Shown here in pieces: positions 44,014-64,000 of a stretch of 64,000 nt of DNA. Source of the stretch: Gemmatimonadaceae bacterium (GTDB lineage Bacteria > Gemmatimonadota > Gemmatimonadetes > Gemmatimonadales > Gemmatimonadaceae); contig JAIEMN010000024.1 of assembly GCA_019752115.1 (NCBI GenBank), forward strand, positions 62,001 through 126,000. The letters run 5' to 3'. Positions within the stretch are counted from its first letter, which is position 1, and each line of letters begins with the position of its first letter. Below the pieces are notes generated by a model that saw only the letters and a program-made list of their open reading frames with translations, was not told the DNA's origin and searched no databases. Made by a program: the position numbers and the translations under genes.

Positions 44014-44018
44014 GCGCC

Positions 44019-44519
44019 ATGGCGCCGGACGCGTCCGCATCGCCCGCCGTGGATGGCGAGCAGGTCGTCCTCGACGAGCTGCTCGCCACGACGCCCACGC
44101 ACCCGGAGTTTCTGCTGCCCGTGCTGCAGCAACTCCAGGCCCGCGTGGGCTTCGTGTCCACGCACGCCATCAAGTCCGTCGCCGAGGCGTTCAATCTCTC
44201 GCGGGCGGAGGTGTTCGGCGTCGTGACGTTCTATCGGGACCTGCGCGAAGCACCGGTTGGCGACACCGTCGTGCAGATCTGCATGGCCGAAGCCTGTCAG
44301 TCGGTCGGCTGTCGCGAGCTCGCGGCGCACGCCTGCCGGCAGCTCGGCGTCACGATGAACCAGACCACGGCCGACGGCCGCGTGCACCTTGAGGAAGCGT
44401 TCTGCTTCGGCAACTGCGCGCTGGGGCCGGCGGTCCGCATTGGCGACGACATCCACGGCGGTGTCACGCCCGAACGGTTCGACGAACTGCTGGCTGAGGC
44501 CGTCTCGCCGACGGTGTAG
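44019..44519 (+). CDS. fdsG: NAD-dependent formate dehydrogenase gamma subunit (NuoE-like)
   Basis: A 166-residue thioredoxin-like 2Fe-2S protein of the NuoE/FdsG family. The cluster ligands are C-x4-C (CMAEAC, near residue 88) and C-x3-C (CFGNC, near residue 128). The N-terminal LPVLQQLQARVGFVS helix pair and FYRDLREAP are typical. It passes electrons between the FdsB flavin and the FdsA clusters. It is the first gene of the fds set, with a 5-base gap after korB. A NuoE of complex I is found separately at 62661, so this copy belongs to formate dehydrogenase. Confidence 0.9.
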   Translation: MAPDASASPAVDGEQVVLDELLATTPTHPEFLLPVLQQLQARVGFVSTHAIKSVAEAFNLSRAEVFGVVTFYRDLREAPVGDTVVQICMAEACQSVGCRELAAHACRQLGVTMNQTTADGRVHLEEAFCFGNCALGPAVRIGDDIHGGVTPERFDELLAEAVSPTV

Positions 44520-44582
44520 TCTGCCCCACCCCGCGCCTCCCTCCTGCGCGGGTTGCACTCCCCCACCACCCCCCGCGCCTCG

Positions 44583-46114
<1,532 letters not shown>

Positions 46115-46118
<4 letters not shown>

Positions 46119-48832: not shown

Positions 48833-49643
48833 GCCCGTCGAGGCGCTCGCCGCGCACCCACGCATGGTCGCCATTGGCGATCGCACGCAGACGTGGGGGA
48901 TCGCGCTCGAGGTCCCCGTGGAGATCACGCTCAACGGCGAACCGTGGACGGTGCTGCTGGCGTCCCCCGAGTCGCTGGAGGATCTCGCCGTGGGGCTGGC
49001 GGTCACCGAGGGCGTGTTGCGTGACGTGACCGCCGTCGAGGCGATCCACACGGCCACCTTCCTGCGCGACGTGCGGGTCGATTTGCGCATCCCGACATGG
49101 GCAATCGACGCCACGGCGAAGCGGGCACGGACGCTCGTGAGCGGGACCGCCTGCGGATTGTGCGGCATCGAATCGCTGGCGCAGCTGGAGGCCCGACGCC
49201 CAGTGCGGAGCCAGCCCCCCGTTCCCGTCGCCGATGCGGCGATCCGCGCGGCGCTCGAGGCGCTGCCGGCGCTCCAGCCACTCAATCAGGCCACGCGCTC
49301 GGTCCACGTGGCCGCGTGGTGCACGCTCGAGGGGACCATTCAGCTCGCCCGCGAGGATGTGGGTCGCCACAACGCGCTCGACAAGCTCGTGGGGGCGCTG
49401 GCCCGCATGGACCGGCTCGCTGAGCAGGGCTTCATCCTGATGAGCAGCCGCGGGAGCTACGAGCTGGTGGCCAAGGCCGCCGCCCTCAATGCCCAGCTGC
49501 TGGCCACCGTGTCGGCGCCGACGGCGCTGGCCCTGACCTGGGCCGATGCGTTGCAGTTGCCGCTCGCTTCCACGGTGCGCACCGGCGATCTTGTAGAGGT
49601 CGTCCGCTTCCCCCACTCCCCAGTGCCCCCCGATGCCGACTGA
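48825..49643 (+). CDS. fdhD: Formate dehydrogenase sulfurtransferase FdhD/FdsC
   Basis: A 272-residue FdhD-family protein that transfers sulfur to the molybdenum cofactor before it enters FdsA. The sulfur-carrying pair is C110 and C113 in ACGLCG. AREDVGRHNALDK and SSRGSYELVAKAA are family motifs. The start is taken as TTG 48825 because GGAGG lies 9 bases upstream and it overlaps the fdsA stop by 8 bases. The next methionine (48864) would remove part of the N-terminus but is possible. Placement between fdsA and fdsD matches known fds operons. Confidence 0.92.
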   Translation: MTEPVEALAAHPRMVAIGDRTQTWGIALEVPVEITLNGEPWTVLLASPESLEDLAVGLAVTEGVLRDVTAVEAIHTATFLRDVRVDLRIPTWAIDATAKRARTLVSGTACGLCGIESLAQLEARRPVRSQPPVPVADAAIRAALEALPALQPLNQATRSVHVAAWCTLEGTIQLAREDVGRHNALDKLVGALARMDRLAEQGFILMSSRGSYELVAKAAALNAQLLATVSAPTALALTWADALQLPLASTVRTGDLVEVVRFPHSPVPPDAD

Positions 49644-49863
49644 CGACCTGGTGCGCATGGCCAACCAGATCGCGCAATTCTTCGCCGTGTACCCGGACGA
49701 AGACGCGATCGACGGTGTGCGCGATCATCTCGAAAAGTTCTGGCCCCCGACGATGCGCAAGGAACTCGTTGCCATCGTGGACGGCCTGCAGCTCGCCGAG
49801 GGCGAGCTGCACCCGCTCGCGCGTCGGGCGGCCGAGCAGCTGCGCAATCCGGCGGGCGAGTGA
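49633..49863 (+). CDS. fdsD: NAD-dependent formate dehydrogenase delta subunit
   Basis: A 76-residue FdsD-family protein, typical in size. MPTDDLVRMANQIAQFF and HLEKFWPPTMRKEL match the family, including the conserved FW.P.MR stretch. It is needed for or stabilises the assembled formate dehydrogenase in known systems. It overlaps fdhD by 11 bases and mobA by 4 (GTGA). Confidence 0.92.
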   Translation: MPTDDLVRMANQIAQFFAVYPDEDAIDGVRDHLEKFWPPTMRKELVAIVDGLQLAEGELHPLARRAAEQLRNPAGE

Positions 49864-50465
49864 ATCCCACGTCGGAGTCTCGTGTGATCGACAAGGCGGC
49901 GATCACCGGTGTCATCCTCTGCGGTGGTCGCGGCCGGCGCATGGGTGGCGTGGACAAGCCCCTCGAACTGCTCAACGGCCGTCCGCTGGTGCGCCACGTG
50001 CGCGAGCGGCTCGTCCAGCAGGTCGGCCGCATTGTCATCAGCGCCAACCGGTCGCTCGACGCCTACTCGTCGTTCGGCGATGTCATCGTCACGGATATCG
50101 AAGCCGGCCTCGGGCCCCTCGAAGGCATCGTGTCGGCGCTGTCGCTGATCGAATCGAGCTGGTTCTTCTGCTGCCCCGGCGACGCCCCCAAGCTCGACCG
50201 TGGCCTCGTGGCCCGCCTCGCCGCGCACGCCGCGGGCGTCGATGCCGTGATTCCCCACGACGGCGAATCGGCACAGCCCCTCTTTCTACTCGGCCGCGCC
50301 ACGCTGCGCCCCGCCATCGAGGCCTATCTGGCGAGCGGCGAACGCGCGGTAACCGCCTTCGTGACCGGCCTGAACGTCACGGTGGTGGACTGCGCGGATA
50401 TCGCGGAGAGCTTTGCGAATGTGAATACGCAGGCGGAACTGGCGGAGATGGCGGGGCGGGAATAG
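49860..50465 (+). CDS. mobA: Molybdenum cofactor guanylyltransferase
   Basis: A 201-residue nucleotidyltransferase that converts molybdopterin to the guanine dinucleotide form required by FdsA. The signature GVILCGGRGRRMGGVDKPL near residue 17 is complete, and CPGDAPKLD near 100 corresponds to the metal-binding Asp loop. GTG 49860 overlaps the fdsD stop (GTGA). It is the last gene of the kor-fds operon, so the cofactor enzyme is made with its client. Confidence 0.93.
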   Translation: MNPTSESRVIDKAAITGVILCGGRGRRMGGVDKPLELLNGRPLVRHVRERLVQQVGRIVISANRSLDAYSSFGDVIVTDIEAGLGPLEGIVSALSLIESSWFFCCPGDAPKLDRGLVARLAAHAAGVDAVIPHDGESAQPLFLLGRATLRPAIEAYLASGERAVTAFVTGLNVTVVDCADIAESFANVNTQAELAEMAGRE

Positions 50466-50607: not shown

Positions 50608-52239
50608 CTACACCAGACTGTGGTACTCCGGGACATACATCGCCTCCCGCACCGCCTCCGCGATCGACTCCGGACGCTCGCGCCGCGCCAGCCCCTGATC
50701 CCACGCCAGCGTCGCCACCGCCACCGCAATCGCCTGACTCACCTCGCGAATGCGGGAGAGGCTCGGGTAGATGCGCCCCATCGCCAGATCGTCATCGGTG
50801 CACATGTCGGCCAGCGTACGCGCCGCCACGGCGAACATCTCCTCGGTCACGCGCGTGGACTCGGCGACCACCACACCGAGCCCTACGCCCGGGAAGATGT
50901 AGGCATTGTTCCCCTGCCCCGGTACGTGGGCCTTGCCCTTGTACTCCACCGGCGCAAACGGGCTGCCGCTCGCAAAGATCGCCGCGCCGTTCGTCTCCGT
51001 ATACGCCTCACGCGCCGTGCACTCCGCCTTGGACGTCGGGTTCGAGAGCGCCATGATGATCGGCCGCGGATTGTACACCGCCATCGCGCGCAGGATCTCC
51101 GGCGTGAACTGGCTCGGCGTCCCCGAGACACCAATGATCGCGTGCGGCTTGATGCTGTGCACCGCCTCGAGCAGCGTGGCCGTGGGCGCGTGATCGTGCG
51201 CATACGGCTTCTTGTGATGCGCGAGGTCCGTGCGCGACTGCACCACCAGCCCCTTCGAGTCCACGAACCAGCAGCGCCGACGCGCCTCGGCTTCGGGCAC
51301 CCCCGCCTGCATCATCGCATTCACGACCAGGTCGCCAATGCCGATGCCCGCTTCGCCGGCGCCGTGGAACAGCAGCCGCATCTCGTGCAGCGGCACACCA
51401 GTGAGACGCGACGCCGAATAGAGACCGCCGAGCGTCACCGACGCCGTTCCCTGAATGTCGTCGTTGAAGGTGCAGATCTGGTTACGCCACTTCTCCAGCA
51501 GCACGAACGCGTTGCTGTTGCCGAAGTCCTCGAACTGCAGGCAGGCCTTGGGGAAGCGCTCCTGCACCGCCTCGATGAACTCGGTGATGAGCGCGTCGTA
51601 CGCCGGGCCGCGCAGGCGCGGGCGCCGCAGCCCCATGTACGCATGGCTTTCGCGCAGCGCCGTGTTCTCGGTGCCCACGTCGATCGTGATGGGCAGACAC
51701 TGATGCGGCGACACACCGGCGCACGCCGTGTAGAGCGTGAGCTTGCCGATCGGGATACCCATGCCGTTCGCGCCCAGATCGCCGAGGCCGAGGATGCGCT
51801 CGCCGTCGGTCACCACGATCATGCGCACGTCGTCGTGCGGCCAGTTCGCGAGGACCTCGCGCACCTTGCCCGCATCTTCAGCCGTCACGTAGAGGCCGCG
51901 CGACCGGCGGAAGATGCGCCCGAACTCCTGACACGCCTCACCGACGGTGGGCGTGTAGAGCACCGGCATCAGCTCCTCGAGGTGGTCCATCACGAGCCGG
52001 TAGAAGAGCGTGATGTTCCGGTCGTGGAGGCCGACGAGGTAGATGTACTGGTCGAGCGGTGTCGGCTTGCCGCGGACGGCGGGCACGATACGCTCGAGCT
52101 GTTCATCCTGGGTCATGATGCGCGGCGGGAGGAGGCCGCGCAGGCCGAGCGCTTCACGCTCCGCTTCAGTGAATGCCGTCCCCTTGTTGAGGACGGGATC
52201 ATTCAACAGGTCAGCCCCTCGCTTGAGTGGCGTATGCAT
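50608..52239 (-). CDS. NAD-dependent malic enzyme
   Basis: A 543-residue malic enzyme (oxidative decarboxylation of malate to pyruvate). The length and YTPTVGEACQEF near residue 95 match the large NAD-type SfcA/MaeA group. GERILGLGDLGANGMGIPIGKL (two parts near residues 150-170) is the malic enzyme signature. FHGAGEAGIGIGDL is the nucleotide-binding motif, and TFNDDIQGTASV supplies metal-binding Asp. ATG 52239 has GGAG six bases upstream; the longer open frame overlaps nuoN and is rejected. It starts 29 bases after the nuoN stop on the same strand, so it may be read from the nuo transcript. Confidence 0.94.
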   Translation of the reverse strand: MHTPLKRGADLLNDPVLNKGTAFTEAEREALGLRGLLPPRIMTQDEQLERIVPAVRGKPTPLDQYIYLVGLHDRNITLFYRLVMDHLEELMPVLYTPTVGEACQEFGRIFRRSRGLYVTAEDAGKVREVLANWPHDDVRMIVVTDGERILGLGDLGANGMGIPIGKLTLYTACAGVSPHQCLPITIDVGTENTALRESHAYMGLRRPRLRGPAYDALITEFIEAVQERFPKACLQFEDFGNSNAFVLLEKWRNQICTFNDDIQGTASVTLGGLYSASRLTGVPLHEMRLLFHGAGEAGIGIGDLVVNAMMQAGVPEAEARRRCWFVDSKGLVVQSRTDLAHHKKPYAHDHAPTATLLEAVHSIKPHAIIGVSGTPSQFTPEILRAMAVYNPRPIIMALSNPTSKAECTAREAYTETNGAAIFASGSPFAPVEYKGKAHVPGQGNNAYIFPGVGLGVVVAESTRVTEEMFAVAARTLADMCTDDDLAMGRIYPSLSRIREVSQAIAVAVATLAWDQGLARRERPESIAEAVREAMYVPEYHSLV

Positions 52240-52268: not shown

Positions 52269-53654
52269 TTACAGCCGCGCCAGCACCCACCCGGGGAGGA
52301 TGGTGAGTGCCAGGGTGGCAGCGAGACAGAGGATGCCGGCCGCACGGGACAGCGCGGCGCCGGTCGTTGCCGGCACCACGCCACGATCGGCGCTCATGAA
52401 CATCCGCATGATCACGCGGAGATAGAAGTACAGGCCCAGGAAGCTGCCCACGAGACCCAACACGGCCCACGTGGTGAAGCCGGCGGCCAGGACCGACTTG
52501 AAGATCAGGAACTTCGCCGTGAAGCCGGGGAGCGGCGGCAAGCCAGCAAGCGAGAGCATGGCCACGGCAATGAGGGTGGCAGCCATCGGGTCGCGATGGA
52601 ACAGCCCCTCCAGCGATTCCATGGCATCGCGCTGGACATCGTTGGCGTGCGCCGGCAGCGCCGCGAACGCCAGCAGGTTGGCCGCCGAGTACGTGATGAT
52701 GTAGAACGTGATCGCCTCAAACCGCCCTTCCGGCGCGCCCAGGAACGCGTAGAAGAGATAGCCGGCGTGCGCGATGCTCGAGTACGCGATCATGCGCCGC
52801 AGCGAGTGCTGCTTCATCGCCGCGAGGTTGCCCCAGACGATGGACACCAGCGGCAATCCGGCCATGATCCCGACCATGGGCCCGGCGGGCACGGCGTTCC
52901 CGAAGAGACGCAGCGCCACCACGAGGATGGCCGCCTTGGAGAGCGTCGCCATGTAGGCCGTGACCGGCACGCTGGCGCCTTCGTAGGTATCGGGTGCCCA
53001 CGCGTGGAACGGCACCACCGCCGCCTTGATGTACAGGGCGAGCAGCACCAGCACGACCGCCGTCCGGGCCATCAGATCACCGGAAGCCAGCGCCATCGTG
53101 AACGCGCTGGTGGCCATCGAGCCCGTGGCGCCATACACCAGCGACAAGCCCATCAGCAGCGTGGCCGACGCCGCGCCACTCAACACCAGATACTTGAGCG
53201 CCGATTCCGCCGCCTGGGGGCGCTTGAACGCCAGCACGATCAGCGCATACGTGGGAATCGACAGCAGTTCGATCCCGAGGAACAGCACCAGCGCGTTCTC
53301 GGCGCTCGGCAACAGCGCCAGCCCATACAGGGAGCAGAGCAGCAGGAGCGGGAACTCCACATCCTCGAACTCGGTGCGCGACATGAGCAGCACCGGCAGC
53401 GCCAGCAGCAGCAGGGACCCCTTGGTCAGGTAGATGACCGGGTTCACGACGAGCTGCCCCAGGAACGGCTCGGTCGACACACCGAGCGACGCCAACCAGA
53501 ACGCCGCGCCACTGCTCGCCACGATCACCAGCGCCGCTACCGGCAGCGCCAGCGCCCGGGACATGCGCAACAGGGCAAGCACGATCAGCACCACCATCCC
53601 GCCGAGCAGCAGGTGCTCGGGGAGCATGGTGCGCAGCACATCACTACCGGGCAT
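52269..53654 (-). CDS. nuoN: NADH-quinone oxidoreductase subunit N
   Basis: A 461-residue antiporter-like membrane subunit of complex I, part of the proton-pumping arm. About 13-14 hydrophobic segments are present. The family lysine/proline helix is visible in YIKAAVVPFHAWAPDTYEGA near residue 210. HSLRRMIAYSSIAHAGY near residue 290 and GLPPLPGFTAKF near residue 370 are also diagnostic. It overlaps nuoM by 11 bases and is the last nuo gene. Confidence 0.95.
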   Translation of the reverse strand: MPGSDVLRTMLPEHLLLGGMVVLIVLALLRMSRALALPVAALVIVASSGAAFWLASLGVSTEPFLGQLVVNPVIYLTKGSLLLLALPVLLMSRTEFEDVEFPLLLLCSLYGLALLPSAENALVLFLGIELLSIPTYALIVLAFKRPQAAESALKYLVLSGAASATLLMGLSLVYGATGSMATSAFTMALASGDLMARTAVVLVLLALYIKAAVVPFHAWAPDTYEGASVPVTAYMATLSKAAILVVALRLFGNAVPAGPMVGIMAGLPLVSIVWGNLAAMKQHSLRRMIAYSSIAHAGYLFYAFLGAPEGRFEAITFYIITYSAANLLAFAALPAHANDVQRDAMESLEGLFHRDPMAATLIAVAMLSLAGLPPLPGFTAKFLIFKSVLAAGFTTWAVLGLVGSFLGLYFYLRVIMRMFMSADRGVVPATTGAALSRAAGILCLAATLALTILPGWVLARL

Positions 53655-55185
53655 CGGACACCATCCCGGCGGCCATTACCGCCTGCTGAAAGTGCTTCGC
53701 GGCGCGCTCGGTCTTCTGCAGCGCCCCGTTGGGGAAGAGGCCGAGCCAGAACACCGCCACCGCGAGCGTCGTGAGCAGGAACGTCTCCCGCCCGGACAGA
53801 TCACTCAGCGCTTCCCCGTGGGGCGTCTTGGTCGGCCCGAAGAGGAAGGTGAGCGCGAAGCGGAGCATATAGAGCGCCCCGAGCACCACCCCGGTGCACG
53901 CCACGACCGCCAGGATCAGCGGGCCATTGTTTCCATCGAGATGCTGCGGCCACGCCGCGGTGAACGCGCCCATCAGCGACATGAACTCGCCGGTGAAGCC
54001 GCTGGTGGTGGGAAGGCCCACCGAGGCCAGAGTGAACACCAGGAAGAACACCGCATAGCGCGGGATCTGCCGTGCGAGGCCGCCATACGCCGCGAGCTCG
54101 CGGGTGTGGCACCGCTCGTACACCATGCCCACGAGCAGGAAGAGCCCACCGGCCACCAGCCCGTGGCTCACCATCTGCACGATCGCTCCCTGAATGCCCA
54201 CGAGGTCGAGGCTCAGGAGCCCCAGCATCACGTAGCCCAGATGGCTGATGGAGGAGTAGGCGATGATCTTCTTGATGTCCGTCTGCACGAGCGCGAGGCA
54301 GGCGCCGTACACGATGCTCACGACGGAGAGCGTCATGAGCAGGGGCGTCAGCTGCCGCGTGGCATCCGGAAAGAGCGGGAAGCCCAGCTTCATGAAGCCG
54401 TACGTGCCCATCTTGAGCAGCACACCGGCCAGAATCACCGAGCCCGGCGTCGGCGCCTCGACGTGCGCATCCGGCAGCCAGGTATGGAGCGGCACCACCG
54501 GCACCTTGATCGCGAAGCTCAGCGCGAACGCACCGAGCAGCGGCATCTGCACCGCCAGCGGCAGCGTGACCTTCTGCAGATCGGCGAAGGCGAAGCTCGC
54601 CACCCCGCCCTGCGCCTGCAGCTGGATGGCCAGATAGATCAGCGCCGCCAGCATCAGGATGGAGCCGAACGCCGTGTAGAGCACGAACTTGATGGTCGCA
54701 TACGCGCGCCGTGCCCCGCCCCAGATCCCGATCATGAAGAACATCGGGATCAGCATCGCTTCCCAGAACAGATAGAACAGGAAGAGATCCTGCGCGAGGA
54801 AGGCGCCCATCATGGCGAACTGGAGCAGCAGCACCATCACGTGGAAGAGCCGCACATCCTTTTCGATGGCATGCGTGGCGCCCACGATCACCAGCGGCCC
54901 GAGGAACGCCGTGAGCAGCACCAGCAGCACATTCGCGCCATCGAGGCCGATGGCGTAGTGCACGCCCCACTCGGCGATCCACGGCACGTTGGTGGCAAAC
55001 TGCAGCCCATCGACGCCGCCATCGAAGGCGCGATACAACACCAGCGCCAGCACGAACTGGATACCCAGCAGCACGGTACTGACGGCACGCACCTCGCTGG
55101 TCTTGTCGCGCGGGATCAGCAGCAGCGCCAGCGCACCGGCCAGCGGCAGCCACAGAATCACGTTCAGCATCAGCGCCTCAGACAT
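53644..55185 (-). CDS. nuoM: NADH-quinone oxidoreductase subunit M
   Basis: A 513-residue antiporter-like subunit of complex I. The proton-path motif KVPVVPLHTWLPDAHVEAPT is near residue 220, DIKKIIAYSSISHLGYV near residue 300 and GLPTTSGFTGEF near 400. About 14 membrane segments are present. FWEAMLIPMFFMIGIWGG near residue 140 holds the conserved Glu. It overlaps nuoL by 8 bases and nuoN by 11, in the standard L-M-N order. Confidence 0.96.
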   Translation of the reverse strand: MSEALMLNVILWLPLAGALALLLIPRDKTSEVRAVSTVLLGIQFVLALVLYRAFDGGVDGLQFATNVPWIAEWGVHYAIGLDGANVLLVLLTAFLGPLVIVGATHAIEKDVRLFHVMVLLLQFAMMGAFLAQDLFLFYLFWEAMLIPMFFMIGIWGGARRAYATIKFVLYTAFGSILMLAALIYLAIQLQAQGGVASFAFADLQKVTLPLAVQMPLLGAFALSFAIKVPVVPLHTWLPDAHVEAPTPGSVILAGVLLKMGTYGFMKLGFPLFPDATRQLTPLLMTLSVVSIVYGACLALVQTDIKKIIAYSSISHLGYVMLGLLSLDLVGIQGAIVQMVSHGLVAGGLFLLVGMVYERCHTRELAAYGGLARQIPRYAVFFLVFTLASVGLPTTSGFTGEFMSLMGAFTAAWPQHLDGNNGPLILAVVACTGVVLGALYMLRFALTFLFGPTKTPHGEALSDLSGRETFLLTTLAVAVFWLGLFPNGALQKTERAAKHFQQAVMAAGMVSDAR

Positions 55186-57073
55186 AGCGCCAGCTCCAGA
55201 GCAAGGCGCCCACGAGGCCCAGCATCACGAACAGCGCGTACAGCTGCAGGCTGCCCGTTTGCAGGCGGCCCAGCAGACCGGCCGTCCATTGCGCGAAGCC
55301 TCCAAGCCCATTGAGCGTCCCGTCGAGCAGCAGCTTGTCGCCGCCACGGAAGAGGACGTTCTCGGAAATCCACGCCAGTGGCTTCACGATCACGAGCTCG
55401 TAGAGCTCGTCTACGAAGTACTTGCCGCTCAGCAACCGGTGCACCGGCGCAAAGGTTTTGGCGAGCGACTCCGCCCGAGACGCGGGGCCGCTGTATACGA
55501 CGATCGCCGCACCGACGCCAACGAACGCGATCACGATGGAGGCGTAGAGCAGCGTATGCTCCATGGGCTCGAGGGCTTCCACGACCTTTGGCAGTGGCAG
55601 CAGCGGCTCGAGGAAGTGCGGCAGCTTGATGTAGCCGCCAACCGCCGAGAGGACGGCCAGCACGCCGAGCACGCCGGTCATGCTGAGCGGCGACTCGTGC
55701 ACATGATGCTCAACCTCATGGCTCATGCGCGATGCGCCAAAGAACGTGAGCCACAGCAGGCGTGTCATGTAGAACGCCGTCATGAGCGCGGTCAGCGCCG
55801 CGAGCCCCCAGAGCCACGCCGCCCCGCCGTGCTCGCTTGAGAAGGTGTACCAGAGGATCTCGTCTTTCGAGAAGAAGCCGGCGAGCCCCGGAATCCCCGC
55901 GATGGCCGCGGTGGCAATGGCAAACGTGTAGAACGTCACCGGGATGTGCTTCCGCAGCCCGCCCATCTTCCGGATGTCCTGCTCCCCACCCAGCGCGTGG
56001 ATCACGCTGCCGGCGCCCAGGAACAGACACGCCTTGAAGAAGGCGTGGGTCACCACGTGGAAGATCGCCACGCCATACGCGCCCACGCCCAGCGCCAGAA
56101 ACATGAAGCCCAGCTGCGAGACGGTGGAGTAGGCCAGCACCTTCTTGATGTCGTTCTGCACGAGCGCGATCGTCGCCGCGAAGAACGCCGTCAGCACGCC
56201 CACGACGGCGATCACGTGGCTCGCCTCGGGGGCCATCGCATACACGCCATGCATGCGGGCCACGAGGTACACGCCCGCCGTGACCATGGTGGCCGCGTGA
56301 ATGAGCGCCGAGACGGGCGTCGGACCGGCCATGGCGTCGGGGAGCCACACATAGAGCGGGATCTGCGCCGATTTGCCGGTGGCGCCCACAAACAGCAGCA
56401 GCCCGACCAGACTCGCGCTCACCATGGTGACCGGCCCCGCCGCGAACGCCGCATTGATGGCGTCCATGTCGAGCGTGCCGAACGCGCGGTACAGCAGGAA
56501 CATGCCGAGCAGGAAGCCGGCGTCGCCGATGCGGTTCGTGATGAACGCCTTCCGGCCGGCCTTGGCGTTGGCAAGATCGTCGAACCAGAAACCGATCAGC
56601 AGATACGACGCGAGCCCGACCCCTTCCCACCCCACGAAGAGCACGAGCATCGAGCGCCCGAGCACCAGCAGGAGCATGAAGAACAGGAAGAGATTCAGGT
56701 ACGCAAAGAAGCGCCCGAAGCTCTTGTCGTCGTGCATGTAGCCCGTCGAATAGATGTGGATCACACTGCCCACACCCGTCACGATGAGCGTCATGACCGC
56801 ACTGAGGCGATCGAAGTAGAAGGCGATGTCGAAGCTCGTGCCGCCCACCGCCGCCCAGCGGTAGAAGGGCTCCACGATGGGCGTGAACCCGCTCGCCTGC
56901 AGTTGCAGGAAGGTGGCGATCGTGAGCCCGAACGCCGCCAGCGGCATCGCGCAGCCGATGAGCGCCGAGGCCGTATGGCCGAGCTTCTTGCCGCCGAATG
57001 CCGTGGCCAGGGTGCCATTGATGGCGAACCCGACCAGTGGCAGGAGTGCAATGAGGGCCAGGGGATGTGCCAT
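55178..57073 (-). CDS. nuoL: NADH-quinone oxidoreductase subunit L
   Basis: A 631-residue distal antiporter-like subunit with its long C-terminal lateral helix region. Key stretches are GWEGVGLASYLLIGFW near residue 150, SAQIPLYVWLPDAMAGPTPVSALIHAATMV (two parts near 235-265) and NDIKKVLAYSTVSQLG near residue 310. Final helices anchor the lateral element. It begins 6 bases after the nuoK stop and overlaps nuoM. The length is normal. Confidence 0.96.
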   Translation of the reverse strand: MAHPLALIALLPLVGFAINGTLATAFGGKKLGHTASALIGCAMPLAAFGLTIATFLQLQASGFTPIVEPFYRWAAVGGTSFDIAFYFDRLSAVMTLIVTGVGSVIHIYSTGYMHDDKSFGRFFAYLNLFLFFMLLLVLGRSMLVLFVGWEGVGLASYLLIGFWFDDLANAKAGRKAFITNRIGDAGFLLGMFLLYRAFGTLDMDAINAAFAAGPVTMVSASLVGLLLFVGATGKSAQIPLYVWLPDAMAGPTPVSALIHAATMVTAGVYLVARMHGVYAMAPEASHVIAVVGVLTAFFAATIALVQNDIKKVLAYSTVSQLGFMFLALGVGAYGVAIFHVVTHAFFKACLFLGAGSVIHALGGEQDIRKMGGLRKHIPVTFYTFAIATAAIAGIPGLAGFFSKDEILWYTFSSEHGGAAWLWGLAALTALMTAFYMTRLLWLTFFGASRMSHEVEHHVHESPLSMTGVLGVLAVLSAVGGYIKLPHFLEPLLPLPKVVEALEPMEHTLLYASIVIAFVGVGAAIVVYSGPASRAESLAKTFAPVHRLLSGKYFVDELYELVIVKPLAWISENVLFRGGDKLLLDGTLNGLGGFAQWTAGLLGRLQTGSLQLYALFVMLGLVGALLWSWRYV

Positions 57074-57079
57074 GCGCCC

Positions 57080-57382
57080 TTAACCCTTGAGCTGAGTGAA
57101 GCGATCGAGATCGAGCGAGCGCGCATGCCGCACGAGCAGCAGCACGATCGGGATCGCGAGAGCCACCTCGGCGGTGGCCACCACAAAGACGAGGAACACC
57201 ATGACCGCCCCGGCCGCGTCGCCGCGCGCCTGCGAGAAGGTCACGAGGCTCAAGTTCACACCGTTGAGCATGAGCTCCATGCACATCAGCATCACGAGCG
57301 CGTTGCGCCGGATCACGACCCCCAGAAAGCCCAGCACGAACAGGGCGCCGGAGAGGAAGAGCAGCGCCTGGGTCTTATCCAC
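57080..57382 (-). CDS. nuoK: NADH-quinone oxidoreductase subunit K
   Basis: A 100-residue, three-helix membrane subunit. NALVMLMCMELMLNGVNLS carries the conserved membrane Glu of the proton pathway, and FVVATAEVALAIPIV the second. The start is taken as GTG 57382 (M)DKTQALLF, because GGGAGG lies 7 bases upstream and the resulting length is exactly typical. An in-frame GTG 15 bases earlier would add five residues. It overlaps the nuoJ stop by 8 bases. Confidence 0.93.
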   Translation of the reverse strand: MDKTQALLFLSGALFVLGFLGVVIRRNALVMLMCMELMLNGVNLSLVTFSQARGDAAGAVMVFLVFVVATAEVALAIPIVLLLVRHARSLDLDRFTQLKG

Positions 57383-57911
57383 GGGTCGCCTCCCCACTGG
57401 CCGCCGGCGCGGCCGCCGCCTGCGTCCGACGGCTCACGTTGATCACCGCCAGCGCCGCCACGATCGCAGACACCAGCAGCACCGTGGTGAGTTCGAACTC
57501 GAGCCAGTACTGGCTCAGAAACGCGGAGGAAAACTGCACGAGGCCGAACGTGGACGTCCCGGTGACCGTGGTGACCGGCGCATTGCCGCTGCGCGAGACC
57601 GCCACACCGAGCACCCCGCTCAGCGCGGCGCCAACGACCACCCCCGGAATCAGCCACTTCGAGAAGCGACGTTGCCCGGCGGGTTCACGCAGCTGCAGGA
57701 GCATGATCACGTAGACCATGAACACCATCACGGCGCCGACGTAGATCAGCACCTGAAAGGCCGCAATGAAGTGCACGCCCAGGAGGCCGTAGACGGCGCC
57801 GAGCGCCGTCATCGTGGTGATCAGGGCCAGCGCGACGCGCATGGGCTCCCGCAACACCAGCATCGAGGCCGCACTCACCAGCGCCAGCGCGCCGATGAGG
57901 GCCAGGATCAC
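57375..57911 (-). CDS. nuoJ: NADH-quinone oxidoreductase subunit J
   Basis: A 178-residue membrane subunit with five hydrophobic segments. HFIAAFQVLIYVGAVMVFMVYVIMLL (two parts near residues 50-75) is the conserved third-helix region with the pi-bulge. The start is GTG 57911, which overlaps the nuoI stop as GTGA; the open frame continues upstream through nuoI but the hydrophobic start MILALIGALALV fits this codon. The C-terminal Ala-rich tail (AAAAPAASGEA) is not conserved. Confidence 0.92.
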   Translation of the reverse strand: MILALIGALALVSAASMLVLREPMRVALALITTMTALGAVYGLLGVHFIAAFQVLIYVGAVMVFMVYVIMLLQLREPAGQRRFSKWLIPGVVVGAALSGVLGVAVSRSGNAPVTTVTGTSTFGLVQFSSAFLSQYWLEFELTTVLLVSAIVAALAVINVSRRTQAAAAPAASGEATRG

Positions 57912-58606
57912 GGTTTCGATGACTGGCGCCCTCGCTGCACGTTCGCGCTCAGCGTGAGCGGAACGGGTTTGGGGGGATAGGGCTTCGCCACGTCCGACTG
58001 CGGCTTCCACGTCAGCATCTCATCCATGGTCAGCCACATGTTGTAGCGGTCTTCCGAGACGAGATCGGGGACGTCCTGCTGCATGCGGATGGCATCCTCC
58101 GGGCACGCCTCCACGCAGAGGCCGCAGAAGACGCACCGCGAGTAGTCGATCTCGAAGCGCACCGGATACTTGGGGTGCGCCGGATCGTTCGGATCAAATC
58201 CCGACTCGATCTCGATCACCTTGGCCGGACAGACCGTCGCGCACATGTTGCACGCGATACACTGCGGCGACCCGTCGGGGCGCTGTGTCAGGATATGCTT
58301 GCCGCGGTTGCGTGGCGCGAAGTCCGCCCGCTTCTCCTCGGGGTAGTACGTCGTCACCGCGCCTTTCCGGCCGGTGAGCCACTTCCCCATGTTCCGCAGG
58401 AACACGCCCGTGGTGATCGCCATGCCGCGCAGCACCTCAGGGAGATAGAGCTTCTCCCAGAGCGTCAGCGTGGGCTCGTTCCAGTACTGCTTGCGCGCAT
58501 ACCGCACGGGCGGCTTGCGCGGGCGCGTCGGCACCGAGGCCGACGGCGCAGCGGCCGGGACGGACACGTCGTCCACATCCGGGCGCATCGGTTCGATCGC
58601 GGTCAT
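57908..58606 (-). CDS. nuoI: NADH-quinone oxidoreductase subunit I (2x 4Fe-4S)
   Basis: A 232-residue ferredoxin-like subunit linking the peripheral clusters to N2. Two 4Fe-4S motifs are present, CIACNMCATVCP near residue 116 and CVFCGLCVEACPED near residue 155. An N-terminal extension of about 45 residues, rich in Pro/Ala/Val, precedes the first conserved segment (LTLWEKLYLPEVLRG). ATG 58606 has GGGAGG upstream and overlaps nuoH by ATGA. Confidence 0.95.
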   Translation of the reverse strand: MTAIEPMRPDVDDVSVPAAAPSASVPTRPRKPPVRYARKQYWNEPTLTLWEKLYLPEVLRGMAITTGVFLRNMGKWLTGRKGAVTTYYPEEKRADFAPRNRGKHILTQRPDGSPQCIACNMCATVCPAKVIEIESGFDPNDPAHPKYPVRFEIDYSRCVFCGLCVEACPEDAIRMQQDVPDLVSEDRYNMWLTMDEMLTWKPQSDVAKPYPPKPVPLTLSANVQRGRQSSKP

Positions 58607-59760
58607 GCCGCCCCTCCCGTCACATACACGCCCACCACCGTCGCCACGAGATTCGCGAGCGACAGCGGGAGCAAGAGTTTCCAACTCAGGCCGAGCATCT
58701 GGTCATACCGGAAGCGCGGCAGCGTCCAGCGAATCTGGATCTGCAGCACACACATGAAGGCGACCTTGCCCAGGAACGTCAGCAGCTGCAGCGGCACGCG
58801 AATCTGCTGGCTCAGGGCAATCACCGTCCCGCCGGGGAGCGTGAAGCCGGCGTCGGTCATGAACGGCAGGTTGTAGCCGCCCAGGAAGAGCGTCGCGAAG
58901 AGCGCGCCCACGACCGCGATCTGGATGAACTCGGAGAACATGAAGAGCCCGAGCTTCATCGCGCTGTATTCCGTGAAGTAGCCGGCGATCAGTTCCGACT
59001 CGGCTTCCGGCAGGTCGAACGGAATGCGCTTGTTCTCGGCGATCGCCGCCGTGAGGAACAGAAACGCCGCCACCGGCTGGTAGAAGATGCCCCACGCCGG
59101 CAGCACGCCGAAGAGCGTGCCCGACTGCCGCTGCACGATGGCCCCCAGATCCACCGTGCCGTACACGAGGATGAGCCCCATGATGGTCAGCCCCATCACG
59201 AGCTCATACGAAATCATCTGCGATCCCGCACGCAGGCCACCGAGCAGCGAGAACTTGTTCTCCGACGCCCAGCCAGCGAGCATCGCGCCGATGATCGTGA
59301 GCCCGCTGAAGGCGAACACCACGAGCAACCCGGCATCGAGCGTCGCGATCTGCATCGGATACGCCCGATCGCCAAACCACCCGGCCAGCGCCGGGATCAA
59401 CTGCCCCGGCACGATCGTCCCGCCGAACGGCACCACCGCGAACACCAGCAGCACCGGCGAAAACACGATGAACGGCGCGAGGAAGTAGCCGACCTTGTCG
59501 TGCGCCTTGGGCTTGAAGTTCTCCTTGAGGAGCATCTTCGCGCCGTCGGCCATGCCGTGGAACAGCCCCAGCCAGACCAGCTTGATCTTGGTGAAGGGGA
59601 TGCGGATGTAGGCCCGGTTGGCGCCGACACGATCGGCCATCACCGCACTCTGCTTGCGCTCGACCCAGGTGAGCAGGCCACCAAAGCTGAGCAGCATCAC
59701 CATCGCGTAGCCGATGAAGACCAGCGTGATGGCGAGATCGGGCCACAGACTCGGGGTCAT
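58603..59760 (-). CDS. nuoH: NADH-quinone oxidoreductase subunit H
   Basis: A 385-residue membrane subunit forming the quinone chamber with NuoB and NuoD. VERKQSAVMADRVGANRA near residue 32 is the signature. SENKFSLLGGLRAGSQMISYE and ENKRIPFDLPEAESELIAGY (near residues 165 and 245) hold the charged quinone-cavity residues. Eight or nine membrane segments are present. It is slightly longer than E. coli NuoH (325) because of loop insertions after residue 100. It overlaps nuoG and nuoI by four bases each. Confidence 0.95.
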   Translation of the reverse strand: MTPSLWPDLAITLVFIGYAMVMLLSFGGLLTWVERKQSAVMADRVGANRAYIRIPFTKIKLVWLGLFHGMADGAKMLLKENFKPKAHDKVGYFLAPFIVFSPVLLVFAVVPFGGTIVPGQLIPALAGWFGDRAYPMQIATLDAGLLVVFAFSGLTIIGAMLAGWASENKFSLLGGLRAGSQMISYELVMGLTIMGLILVYGTVDLGAIVQRQSGTLFGVLPAWGIFYQPVAAFLFLTAAIAENKRIPFDLPEAESELIAGYFTEYSAMKLGLFMFSEFIQIAVVGALFATLFLGGYNLPFMTDAGFTLPGGTVIALSQQIRVPLQLLTFLGKVAFMCVLQIQIRWTLPRFRYDQMLGLSWKLLLPLSLANLVATVVGVYVTGGAA

Positions 59761-61277
59761 GCGCCCACCCCCGCCGCCGTCGGCGCCAGCTGCGCGAACA
59801 GCGTGGCCGCATGCGCCACCGTGGGCTGCGGCTGGAAGACCGCCGTGAACGGCGACACGGTGCCCTCACAGTTGGTGTAGTGCCCGCTCCGCTCGGTCAT
59901 GATGCTGATGGGCAGGAACACATCGGCCCGCGCCAGATCGGCGTGCGCGTAGCTGTCGAGCCGGATCACGCGGGCGCCGCTCGGCAGCTGCGCCGCGTCA
60001 AACCCTTCGCCCCACACGAGCACCACATCGGCGCCCGCCAGCGCTCCAGCCACATCGGCCGGCAGCGCGGGATACAGCGCCAGCGCCGCGGTCATGTTGG
60101 GGTTCTTGTCGGCCTTGATGAGCAGTCCGTCTTCCACGACCTCGCCCGGCTGCGGCACATGGTCGGCCTTGGCATACCCGGTCAGGCGGCCGCCAAGGGC
60201 GGCGCCGATCGTGTCGCGGAACGCCGTCAGCTCCTCATTCGACGCCCAGCTCGACACCAGCGCGACCACGCGGTGGGCGCCCGCCAGCAAGGCCGCCGCC
60301 TTGGCGGTGGCCTCGGCCAGCGACGCCGGCTGACCGCCGATCATCGCCGCATCGGCGCGCGGCCGCTCGAAGATCTTCGCGAGATCGCGCCCCTTGTTGC
60401 AGATCCACGGCCCGTTCACGGCCGGGTTCTCGAGCGGCGTGACGCGCTCGATGCGCGAGTTGAGATACGGATCGAGCGCCTTGAGCGCCCATTCCGGCCG
60501 GCGGCTCCAGACGTTCACCGTGCAGCCTCGCGAGCAGCCCGGGCACACCGACGCGGTGGGCTTGGTGTACCACACCCGCGCGTGATCGAGATTCTCGCGC
60601 GACAGCAGCGCGCCCACCGGGCAGATGTCGATGACATTGTCCGAGTAGGCGTCGGTGTTGAAATTGGCGTCTTCGGCCGGGCGGATGAGCGCGTGGTCGC
60701 CGCGGTACACCGCCGCCAGCGCATGGCTCTCCGACACCTCATGCGTGAATCGGACACAGCGCGTGCACATGATGCACCGCTCGTTGTCCAGCATGATGCG
60801 ATCGCTCAACGGGTAGAACTTGGTCGCGTGCGTCTTCGCATCGCGCGACAGCGACGCCATCCCGTTGTGCTCGTAGTGATAGTCCTGCAGCAGGCACTCA
60901 CCCGACTTGTTGCAGATCCCGCAGTCCACCGGGTGGTTCAGGGTGATGAACTGCATCGTTTCGCGACGCAGCTTCTTCACCTTTTCCGATTCGGTGAGCA
61001 CGCGCATCCCGGCGGTGACCGGCATGTTGCAGCCGATATCGAACCACGGATCGCCGCTCTCCTGCTCCACCTCCACCATGCAGATGCGGCAATTGCCCGG
61101 CACCGACAAGTCGTGGTGCCAGCAGAAGTGCGGGATGTCCACGCCGGCGCGCCGCGCCGCCTGGATCACCGACTCGCCCTTGTACGCCGTGCACGGCGTG
61201 CCGTTGATGAAGAAGTCGATCGTGCTGCTGGTATCGACTGGCTCGTTGTTGCCGCGCTTGCGGGTGGCCTGGCTCAT
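59757..61277 (-). CDS. nuoG: NADH-quinone oxidoreductase subunit G, short form
   Basis: A 506-residue iron-sulfur subunit. The N-terminal 2Fe-2S domain has CWHHDLSVPGNCRICMVEVE, the His-ligated cluster is in LNHPVDCGICNKSGEC, and 4Fe-4S follows in CIMCTRCVRF with a distant Cys in DICPVGALL. CPGCSRGC near residue 245 could bind the additional N7-type cluster. It is much shorter than E. coli NuoG (about 900) because most of the molybdopterin-like C-domain is missing. It overlaps nuoF and nuoH by ATGA. It is probably functional, since all electron-transfer cysteines remain. Confidence 0.93.
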   Translation of the reverse strand: MSQATRKRGNNEPVDTSSTIDFFINGTPCTAYKGESVIQAARRAGVDIPHFCWHHDLSVPGNCRICMVEVEQESGDPWFDIGCNMPVTAGMRVLTESEKVKKLRRETMQFITLNHPVDCGICNKSGECLLQDYHYEHNGMASLSRDAKTHATKFYPLSDRIMLDNERCIMCTRCVRFTHEVSESHALAAVYRGDHALIRPAEDANFNTDAYSDNVIDICPVGALLSRENLDHARVWYTKPTASVCPGCSRGCTVNVWSRRPEWALKALDPYLNSRIERVTPLENPAVNGPWICNKGRDLAKIFERPRADAAMIGGQPASLAEATAKAAALLAGAHRVVALVSSWASNEELTAFRDTIGAALGGRLTGYAKADHVPQPGEVVEDGLLIKADKNPNMTAALALYPALPADVAGALAGADVVLVWGEGFDAAQLPSGARVIRLDSYAHADLARADVFLPISIMTERSGHYTNCEGTVSPFTAVFQPQPTVAHAATLFAQLAPTAAGVGA

Positions 61278-62668
61278 GCGCGAGCCCCCGCCAGTCGTGG
61301 CGCCATCGGCGTGGGCACCGCGCCCTCGAAGGGATCGACCACCGCGAGACGCCCGTCGTACATGGACCGCTTGTGGGTGATGAAGTACTCGAACTCCTCG
61401 CGGTAATGATCGAGGATGGCCGTAATGGCGTAGCCGGCCGAGTCGCCCAGCGAGCAGACCGTCGTGCCGTCATTGGCATCCGAAATGCCATAGAGCCGGT
61501 CGATGTCTTCCGGTCGCCCCTGCCCCTTCACGATCCGATCGAGCACGCGCTCCATCCAGCCCATCCCCTCACGGCAGGGCGTGCACTGCCCGCACGACTC
61601 ATGGTGATAGAAGCGCTGGATGTTGCGCGCCGCGCGCACCATGCACGTGCCCTCGGCAATCGCGATCATACCGCCGGAGCCGAGCTGCGAACCGGCCTTC
61701 AGCGCGGCGTTGTGATCGAGCGTCACGCCCCGCAGTTCATCGCGATTGAGAATCTTGGTGGAGACACCACCGGGGATGATGCACTTGAGGTCGCGCCCGC
61801 CCTGAATGCCGCCGCAATCCTCGAAAATGAACTGCTCCCAGGAGTACCCGTACTCGACCTCGTACACCCCGGGGCGGTTCACATGCCCGGAGATGGAGAT
61901 CATCTGCGTCCCCGGGCTCTTGGGGGTACCGACCTTGCGGAAGCCCTCGGCGCCGAGCGTCAGAATGACCGGGACGTTGGCCAGCGTTTCGACGTTGTTG
62001 ACCACCGTCGGCCGCTGATAGAGCCCCTTCACCGTGAGGCGCGGCGGACGGTTTCGCGGCCACCCCTTCTTGCCCTCGAGCGACGCAAGCATCGCCGACG
62101 CTTCGCCGCAGACGTACGAACCGGCGCCGCGATAGACGACCACATCCAGCGAGTAGTTCGTGCCCAGGATGTTCTGCCCGAGCAGGCCGGCCTCGTAGGC
62201 CTCGTCCACCGCGCCCTGGATGCGACGGTACGGCAGATCGAACTCGCCGCGAATGTAGATGAAGGCGTGGCGGCCGCCGATCGCATACGACGCGAGCATC
62301 AACCCTTCGAGCGTCAGATGCGGCGTGTGCTGCAGAATCCAGCGGTCCTTGAACGTCCCGGGCTCGCCTTCGTCCGCATTCATGCAGACGTAGTGCGGCT
62401 CGCCGTCGTTCGGCTTGATGACGCCCCACTTGCGACCGGCCGGAAACGCCGCGCCGCCGTGCCCGAGGAGGCCGGCGTTGCTCACTTCCTTGGTGACATC
62501 TGCCGGCTGCAGCGTCTTCAGCGCCTTCTCGAGCGCCTGATAGCCGCCCCGCGCCTTGTACGCGGCCAGCGTATGCGACGTCTCGGTGACCTCGTGGTTC
62601 ATGAAGAACTTCACGCCGGTCACGGAGCCGTCTTTCCCCTGCGGGGTGTAGACCACGGGCTCACTCAT
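61274..62668 (-). CDS. nuoF: NADH-quinone oxidoreductase subunit F, with altered nucleotide-site motif
   Basis: A 464-residue flavoprotein subunit, the entry point for electrons from NAD(P)H. The FMN loop reads GLLGHGGAAFPAG near residue 70 instead of the usual RGRGGAGFPTG. MNADEGEPGTFKDR is intact. The adenosine-ribose motif reads CGEASAML (C187-A190), where nearly all NuoF have CGEETAL; the second Glu is Ala. The 4Fe-4S motif SCGQCTPCREG and a later Cys are present. In E. coli NuoF this Glu (E183) binds the ribose hydroxyls and hinders NADPH. It overlaps nuoE by 8 bases. Confidence 0.94.
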   Translation of the reverse strand: MSEPVVYTPQGKDGSVTGVKFFMNHEVTETSHTLAAYKARGGYQALEKALKTLQPADVTKEVSNAGLLGHGGAAFPAGRKWGVIKPNDGEPHYVCMNADEGEPGTFKDRWILQHTPHLTLEGLMLASYAIGGRHAFIYIRGEFDLPYRRIQGAVDEAYEAGLLGQNILGTNYSLDVVVYRGAGSYVCGEASAMLASLEGKKGWPRNRPPRLTVKGLYQRPTVVNNVETLANVPVILTLGAEGFRKVGTPKSPGTQMISISGHVNRPGVYEVEYGYSWEQFIFEDCGGIQGGRDLKCIIPGGVSTKILNRDELRGVTLDHNAALKAGSQLGSGGMIAIAEGTCMVRAARNIQRFYHHESCGQCTPCREGMGWMERVLDRIVKGQGRPEDIDRLYGISDANDGTTVCSLGDSAGYAITAILDHYREEFEYFITHKRSMYDGRLAVVDPFEGAVPTPMAPRLAGARA

Positions 62669-63188
62669 GGCTCAACTGCTCCAGCAGCGCGTCCACCGCC
62701 GCCGGCGTGAGGTTCTCATGGTAGGCCTCGTTCACGCGCATCATGGGCGCCGTGCCGCAACTCGCGAGGCACTCCACGGTGCTCAGCGTGAACAGGCCGT
62801 CGGGGGTCGTTTCCCCCGGCTCGATGCCCAACTTGCCGGTGAGATAGCGGAGCAAGCCCTCCGAGCCCCGCAGCGCGCACGAAAGCGTGTGGCACACCTG
62901 CAGGTGATGCCGGCCGATGGGCTCGCGCGTGAACATCGTGTAGAACCCCAGCACCTCGTCGATCTGGGTGCGAGGCACGCCGAGATACGCCTGCAGCTCG
63001 TCCACATCGCTGTCGGCGATGTAGCCGCGCTCCTGCTGGATGCGATGCAGGCACGGGATGGTCAGCGACCCCTCGAAGCCCTCCGGGTAGCGCGCCTTCC
63101 AGCGCTCGAACTCGGGGATGAGGTGCTGAATGCTGGTCATCGATCCCGTCGCGGCCACGCGCGGGCGTTCGGACGTCTGGTCCATCAT
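62661..63188 (-). CDS. nuoE: NADH-quinone oxidoreductase subunit E
   Basis: A 175-residue thioredoxin-like 2Fe-2S subunit. Ligands are C-x4-C in CHTLSC near residue 101 and C-x3-C in CLASC near residue 142. The helical N-part includes IPCLHRIQQERGYIA, and VLGFYTMFTREP precedes the cluster. Two adjacent ATG codons (63188 and 63185) are possible starts; the first overlaps nuoD as ATGA. It is distinct from FdsG at 44019. Confidence 0.94.
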   Translation of the reverse strand: MMDQTSERPRVAATGSMTSIQHLIPEFERWKARYPEGFEGSLTIPCLHRIQQERGYIADSDVDELQAYLGVPRTQIDEVLGFYTMFTREPIGRHHLQVCHTLSCALRGSEGLLRYLTGKLGIEPGETTPDGLFTLSTVECLASCGTAPMMRVNEAYHENLTPAAVDALLEQLSHE

Positions 63189-64000
63189 CGATCACACTCA
63201 CCGCCGATCATGTTCACCGACCCGAAGGTCGTGACCACGTCGGCGAGCTGATAGCCGTTGAGCATGGTGTGGACGCCCCCCATGTGCACGAAGCTGGGGG
63301 AGCGCACATGCACCTTGTGCGGGCGCCCTTCGCCGGTACTGACGCAGTAGAACCCGAGTTCGCCGTTCGCCCCTTCGTGCGCCACGTAGATGTCACCGGC
63401 CGGCACCACCGGCCCTTCCATCACGAGCTTGAAGTGGTTGATGAGCGATTCGATCTCGGTGTAGACCAGCTGCTTCTCGGGGAAGACGCAGCGGCGGTCG
63501 TCCACCATGATCGGCCCATCCGGCACCATGTCGATGAGCTGACGAATCATGTACACCGATTCGTCCATCTCGCGCATGCGCACGTAGTAGCGATCGTAGT
63601 TGTCGCCCTTGATCCCCACCGGCACGTCAAAATCGAGCTCGCCGTAGGCGAGGTACGGCATGTCCTTGCGCAGGTCGCGGGCGGCGCCGGTGCTGCGGAG
63701 GATCGGGCCCGTGAAGCCCCAATGAATCGCGTCCTTGGTGCTGATCACGCCCACATCGCGCATGCGATCGATGAAGATGCGGTTCCGATCGACCAGCCCG
63801 TGCACGCGCTCGATGTACTCCTCGTAGTCCTTGAGGATCTCGGTCAGGCGCTCGAACCACCCGGCCGGCACATCGAAGGCCAGCCCGCCGATCCGACCGA
63901 ATGTGTAGGTCACGCGCGCGCCGGTGATCGCGGCCAGATGCTCGTACATCGAGTCGCGCACCGTGACGAGATACAGGAATGCCGTCATGGCCCCCAGCTC
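63185..64000 (-). CDS. nuoD: NADH-quinone oxidoreductase subunit D, C-terminal part (cut by window edge)
   Basis: The last 271 codons of the 49-kDa quinone-site subunit; roughly the first third is beyond position 64000. The frame is open to the edge. ELGAMTAFLYLVTVRD at the edge, FGRIGGLAFDVP and GDNYDRYYVRMREMDES are NuoD motifs. The ending FGSVNMIGGECDR is the conserved C-terminus. nuoA-C would be expected upstream of the window. Confidence 0.95.
   Translation of the reverse strand, partial: ELGAMTAFLYLVTVRDSMYEHLAAITGARVTYTFGRIGGLAFDVPAGWFERLTEILKDYEEYIERVHGLVDRNRIFIDRMRDVGVISTKDAIHWGFTGPILRSTGAARDLRKDMPYLAYGELDFDVPVGIKGDNYDRYYVRMREMDESVYMIRQLIDMVPDGPIMVDDRRCVFPEKQLVYTEIESLINHFKLVMEGPVVPAGDIYVAHEGANGELGFYCVSTGEGRPHKVHVRSPSFVHMGGVHTMLNGYQLADVVTTFGSVNMIGGECDR

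Follow-up and report, generated by a model that had tools for sequence, protein, structure and literature searches.

A second complex I with a predicted NADPH-type nucleotide pocket in Gemmatimonas and Burkholderiales

The window, a 64,000-nucleotide stretch of a Gemmatimonadaceae genome (G000), encodes a variant complex I whose NuoF subunit carries an altered nucleotide pocket (Table 1). This variant is a dedicated second complex I that stands beside a canonical one. Judging from its residues and by analogy with characterized relatives, its pocket has probably been switched from NADH to NADPH, with NADPH as the preferred substrate; at least some use of NADPH is very likely. An earlier note on this DNA had suggested altered NADH/NADPH specificity from the loss of a single glutamate, and the suggestion is now supported by Arg210, the residue pattern of T. 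kivui HydB, FdsB mutants, the presence of a second complex I, and an NADP-type malic enzyme. Complex I is generally regarded as driven by NADH alone; to our knowledge, NADPH use has been seen only in engineered mutants or as a weak side activity, and we know of no natural complex I that prefers NADPH. No native NADPH complex I came up in a search of the open-access literature. An NADPH-driven complex I in nature would reveal how the enzyme changes its specificity, and would give NADPH a direct outlet into respiration (or a pmf-driven source).

Table 1. Features of the variant nuo operon and its neighborhood, in window coordinates
Feature	Position	Strand	Remarks
GltD/NfnB-like FAD/NAD(P)H:Fe-S oxidoreductase	39360..41153	+	Fer4_20, Pyr_redox_2, Fer4_7
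KorA and KorB	41150..44013	+	2-oxoacid:ferredoxin oxidoreductase
fdsG, fdsB, fdsA, fdhD, mobA-like	44019..50465	+	formate dehydrogenase; FdsB CGEETALL, NAD-type
malic enzyme	50608..52239	-	directly after nuoN; NADP-type residues (VDSKGL...HHKKP)
nuoN	52269..53654	-	
nuoM	53644..55185	-	
nuoL	55178..57073	-	
nuoK	57080..57382	-	start inferred
nuoJ	57375..57923	-	start inferred
nuoI	57908..58606	-	start inferred
nuoH	58603..59760	-	
nuoG	59757..61277	-	short, 506 aa; Fer2, NADH-G 4Fe-4S, Fer4_Nqo3, Molybdop_Fe4S4 domains
nuoF	61274..62668	-	464 aa; complex I 51-kDa (NAD(P)H/FMN/N3) subunit, CGEA...RPPR pocket
Arg210 codon	62039..62041	-	Thermus F205 / RcFdsB L279 position; coordinates from ORF frame
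Arg207 codon	62048..62050	-	Thermus K202 / RcFdsB K276 position; coordinates from ORF frame
Ala190 codon	62099..62101	-	GCG; E. coli E183 / Thermus E185 / RcFdsB E259 position
Val83 codon	62420..62422	-	Thermus F78 position; coordinates from ORF frame
nuoE	62661..63188	-	N1a-cluster subunit
nuoD, 3' part	63185..64000	-	nuoC, nuoB, nuoA past window end (L185/L158)

The nucleotide pocket of the variant NuoF

The variant NuoF reads C187-G188-E189-A190-S-A-M-L from the codons TGC GGC GAA GCG TCG GCG ATG CTT, and in HMMER alignments to solved NuoF chains the motif is free of gaps. The earlier reading of Ala190 in place of the second Glu of CGEE (residue 183 in E. coli K-12 NuoF and 185 in Thermus Nqo1) thus holds. 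The stronger half of the pocket change is Arg210, which that reading had missed: the pocket stretch, CGEASAMLASLEGKKGWPRNRPPRLTV, not only lacks the second Glu but has Arg at +17 and +20 from it. By spacing from E259 of R. capsulatus FdsB (RcFdsB), a relative of NuoF, +20 corresponds to Leu279 (Thermus Phe205, the aromatic on the adenine side) and +17 to Lys276 (Thermus Lys202). Two further details had been described correctly, namely a differing FMN loop, which reads GLLGHGGAAFPAGRKW and has GHGG for the canonical GRGG, and an FdsB paralogue in the window with CGEETALL (44553-46118), which reads CGEETALLESLEG. In Thermus numbering, the otherwise invariant pocket residues that have changed include R65H, R63L, F78V, E185A, and F205R.

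The FMN and nicotinamide residues G64, G66, G67, K75, D94, E97, Y180, and E184 (Thermus numbering) are all present in NuoF, and K80, D99, E102, Y185, and E189 are invariant across the variant clade, as are the N3 cysteines 359/362/365/405. The protein passes the PRK13596.1 profile (437.3 bits, cut-off 389) and scores 512.8 bits against TIGR01959, under its cut-off of 558.65. An AlphaFold prediction on a 22-member alignment (A2) gave pLDDT below 50 at residues 70-79 and 183-221, which are the pocket loops, probably owing to the shallow alignment, and was not used.

Alignment to relatives established that the substitution is clade-wide. Ala190 is found in 52 of 52 non-identical relatives (62-100% identity), against Glu in all 26 canonical NuoFs of the same alignment. 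These 52 sequences all carry A/R/R/V at Thermus positions 185/205/202/78, where canonical NuoFs have E/F/K at 185/205/202 (one with R at 202) and F or L at 78; the marks of an NADH-specific NuoF, the second Glu of CGEE and an aromatic residue at +20, are both missing from every one. A compensating acidic residue, the outcome that would have undermined the earlier proposal, does not occur in the clade alignment, in which the fixed changes near the lost Glu are Ser191, Arg207, and Arg210. Among 100 columns conserved within both groups, of which 31 lie in pocket segments defined from Thermus numbering, we counted 16 fixed differences between variant and canonical NuoFs; 11 fall in the pocket segments, compared with about five expected (hypergeometric P = 8e-4).

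Such regularity bears on the most trivial explanation, that the changes are sequencing or assembly errors or random drift in a redundant copy. The assembly behind the window is indeed a draft in 83 contigs, and drift is conceivable in a redundant complex I, but identical residues occur in the single-contig genomes G021, G028, and G029 (in the last at locus L025), and the same residues are kept in two phyla, across which the variant NuoF is under strong constraint. The single-contig genomes and the 52/52 alignment refute error and drift, whose probability we regard as negligible.

Both halves of the pocket change have precedents. In RcFdsB, E259 hydrogen-bonds the ribose 2'-OH; the variants E259G/Q/R/K and, separately, L279R gain an NADP+ activity that is absent in the wild type, while E259D gains none (Kumar and Leimkuhler, PMC10671435). 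Since the combined mutations tried in that study gave no additive gain, the two residues are not the whole specificity switch. The natural precedent is the T. kivui HydABC complex, which reduces NADP+ at 20.8 U/mg (NAD+, <0.01; PMC8578170). Its HydB subunit (PDB 8a6t) reads CGESTALTYSIEGKRGMPRVRPPRTNE and, like the variant NuoF, is without the second Glu and has Arg at +17 and +20; NAD-type HydBs retain CGEE and PPF. The NAD-type HydB of A. woodii shares the Arg at +17, which by itself is therefore not diagnostic. For acetogen hydrogenases, a GDEGDPG loop has been proposed as an NADP motif (PMC9431212); it does not apply to the variant NuoF, which reads ADEGEPG. From these two independent precedents, engineered FdsB and natural T. 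kivui HydB, we infer that the variant uses NADPH.

How exclusively it does so is a separate matter. Under relaxed dual specificity, both NADH and NADPH would be oxidised, as by the engineered E183 or E259 variants. Such behavior would suit a site whose nicotinamide half is unchanged, and single RcFdsB variants retain some NAD+ activity (PMC10671435). It appears improbable, however, given that the genomes checked already have a canonical NADH complex I, that the natural protein with both changes, T. kivui HydB, is strictly NADP-dependent, and that Arg210 never varies, a constancy suggestive of selection for the phosphate. The evidence points to a preference for NADP(H) over merely relaxed specificity.

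Far less credible is a degenerate pocket, in which NuoF would have abandoned pyridine nucleotides and the complex would take its electrons from ferredoxin or another donor. Several residues that are otherwise invariant are indeed altered (the five listed above), and ferredoxin enzymes are encoded nearby. Yet the altered residues are themselves invariant over 52 sequences, the FMN, nicotinamide, and Fe-S residues as well as NuoE are all retained, and the pattern corresponds to that of a working NADP enzyme, T. kivui HydB.

A second complex I in two phyla

The variant operon is complete, with all 14 genes nuoA-N: nuoD-N lie in the window, and nuoA, nuoB, and nuoC just outside it. The genome of the window also has a canonical nuo operon on another contig, whose NuoF reads CGEETALM and is 49% identical to the variant. 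Likewise, 27 of 27 Burkholderiales-group genomes examined contain a second NuoF that scores like the canonical copies, with CGEE read directly in the three whose sequence was fetched. The canonical NuoF being present in all of these genomes, the variant is a dedicated second complex I and is free to specialise. The 506-residue NuoG of the variant operon is without most of the molybdopterin-oxidoreductase-like domain and keeps the Fe-S domains; the NuoG of the canonical operon is also short (527 aa). At three Burkholderiales loci (L159, L163, and L167), ORF translations further revealed a Na+-NQR operon (nqrA-F) adjoining the variant operon, so that those genomes encode three respiratory NAD(P)H dehydrogenases side by side.

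A survey of 298 genomes from the phylum detected the variant only in one genus (g1) and in a single genome of another genus in the same family. A GTDB-wide scan placed it in Gemmatimonas and its neighbors and in Burkholderiales (Rubrivivax, Aquabacterium, Rhizobacter, and relatives), at 63-85% identity; a few loci bear other organism labels (Kuenenia, Lysobacter). Its occurrence in Burkholderiales is sporadic (2/300), and no relatives of the variant were found on viral contigs. The variant NuoFs form a single clade (100/100) with a Gemmatimonas branch and a Burkholderiales branch (96/98), a topology implying one origin and a transfer between the phyla, in one direction or the other.

We also searched about 800 genomes of Bacillota, Planctomycetota, and Pseudomonadota for the DNA pattern encoding CGE[AS]...PR..PPR and found no further complex I-like case. 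The sole Planctomycetota match was rejected, as it does not read as NuoF. In the tree, a Bacillota match with CGESSALV...HRPPR (L183 in genome G1027) falls among clostridial HydB-like proteins; this NuoF-family protein is likely an NADP-type diaphorase. The combination of CGE[AS] with PPR offers a sequence signature for finding further cases. The variant gene has a cultured carrier, G. groenlandica TET16, which makes the question of specificity directly testable.

Gene neighborhood and the direction of electron flow

The malic enzyme encoded after nuoN has plant malic enzymes and human ME3 among its best solved matches, and carries Ser346, Lys347, and the Lys362-type lysine, the residues on which the NADP specificity of human malic enzyme depends (PMC3183043). 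Nine or more further Gemmatimonas loci likewise have the gene after nuoN, and in Burkholderiales it adjoins the variant operon at three loci (L072/L163, L088/L168, and L110). Wherever the motif is readable, VDSKGL and the lysine occur in the neighboring malic enzymes of both phyla. No malic enzyme lies beside the operon in L055, L057, L059, L061, and L175. The earlier appeal to this gene is strengthened by its NADP-type residues but applies to some members of the clade only.

A cluster that converges on the operon of nuo and malic enzyme genes encodes, in order, GltD/NfnB-like, KorA, KorB, FdsG, FdsB, FdsA, FdhD, and MobA-like proteins (39360-50465, + strand). Genes for the GltD/NfnB-like protein and for Kor or PFOR recur by the variant operons of other Gemmatimonas and of Burkholderiales (L161, L164, L168, and L169); inspection by eye found none flanking the canonical operon of the window's genome. 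The locus is not all NADP-linked, since the FdsB of the window keeps NAD-type residues. Together, the malic enzyme and the GltD/NfnB-like and Kor neighbors would fit a module respiring NADPH that is derived from the malic enzyme and from reduced ferredoxin. Elsewhere in the window we noted a 1871-aa ORF with WD40-like repeats and amidohydrolase and beta-lactamase domains (32772-38387, - strand), a 1937-aa ORF with DUF5107, TPR, and a glycoside hydrolase 123 N-terminal domain of nearly 1000 residues (19568-25381, - strand), and an MGDG synthase-like glycosyltransferase (PF06925; 18364-19617, + strand), the genome also having photosynthetic reaction-centre genes.

In the mechanism we propose, loss of the ribose-binding Glu at Ala190 would remove a charge that repels the 2'-phosphate of NADPH, and Arg210, aided by Arg207, would offer this phosphate a positive surface. 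FMN would accept the hydride from NADPH, and the electrons would then reach the quinone pool by way of N3 and the Fe-S chain as protons are pumped; the quinones of G. groenlandica are MK-8/MK-9 (PMC7844134). NADPH would be supplied by the NADP-malic enzyme and by 2-oxoacid:ferredoxin oxidoreductase coupled to the GltD/NfnB-like NADP reductases encoded nearby. On balance, we favor the full picture of a naturally occurring complex I that pumps protons as an NADPH:quinone oxidoreductase, stands beside the NADH type in two phyla, and is coupled to an NADPH-producing malic enzyme and ferredoxin:NADP modules. If so, each of the two complexes would connect its own coenzyme pool, NADH or NADPH, to the quinone pool, and the pair would amount in effect to a quinone-linked transhydrogenase.

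The same NADP-linked complex could instead run mainly in reverse, with pmf driving electrons from quinol to NADP+, whether as a quinone-linked transhydrogenase together with the canonical complex I or as a source of NADPH, and then ferredoxin, for biosynthesis. Many members are phototrophs, reaction-centre genes (PF00124) being common in Gemmatimonas, and ferredoxin-linked 2-oxoacid oxidoreductases are neighbors of the operon. The membrane transhydrogenase subunit PntB was also not found in most of the Gemmatimonas genomes checked, including the window's genome and the single-contig G021 (carriers in which it was not found: G000, G001, G004, G005, G008, G010, G021, G025, and G032). Reverse flow nonetheless seems unlikely. 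Six Gemmatimonas members (G004, G007, G008, G019, G021, and G025) lack PF00124, as do 21 of 27 Burkholderiales genomes, and we rejected phototrophy as the explanation of the distribution; PntB is present in most Burkholderiales members, a mixed pattern that also disqualifies its absence as a general correlate of the variant. Moreover, the usual product of an NADP-malic enzyme is NADPH, in keeping with a donor. Oxidation of NADPH by the variant is thus the direction we consider more likely than its synthesis.

Comparison with known systems

With canonical NuoF/Nqo1/NDUFV1, the variant shares family, length, the FMN loop, E97, Y180, the first Glu of CGEE, the N3 cysteines, and a full nuoA-N operon. 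It differs in CGEE to CGEA, PPF to PPR, K202 to R, F78 to V, and GRGG to GHGG, and its identity to canonical copies is about 53% or less. The adjacent malic enzyme resembles the NADP-malic enzymes of plant C4 metabolism and of animals (ME1/ME3) in VDSKGL and the Lys362-type lysine; here, however, it is a bacterial gene in or beside a complex I operon.

The positions changed match those of the E. coli NuoF E183 variants, as this work on the equivalent Glu is cited in PMC10671435 and PMC6560083, and those of the RcFdsB E259 and L279R variants, in which NADP(H) activity was likewise gained. By these accounts, those proteins are laboratory mutants impaired with NAD+, whereas the variant NuoF is natural, invariant, and long-maintained.

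The closest natural counterpart in nucleotide pattern is T. kivui HydB, a NuoF-family diaphorase that uses NADP+ and not NAD+. Both proteins combine an uncharged residue for the second Glu with Arg at +20, although HydB has Ser (CGES...RPPR) where the variant NuoF has Ala (CGEA...RPPR), two substitutions that presumably arose separately. HydB is also a 630-aa component of a soluble bifurcating hydrogenase; the variant NuoF, at 464 aa within a nuo operon, has neither that length nor that context. By analogy, we predict the variant NuoF to be HydB-like in nucleotide use, yet not a HydB.
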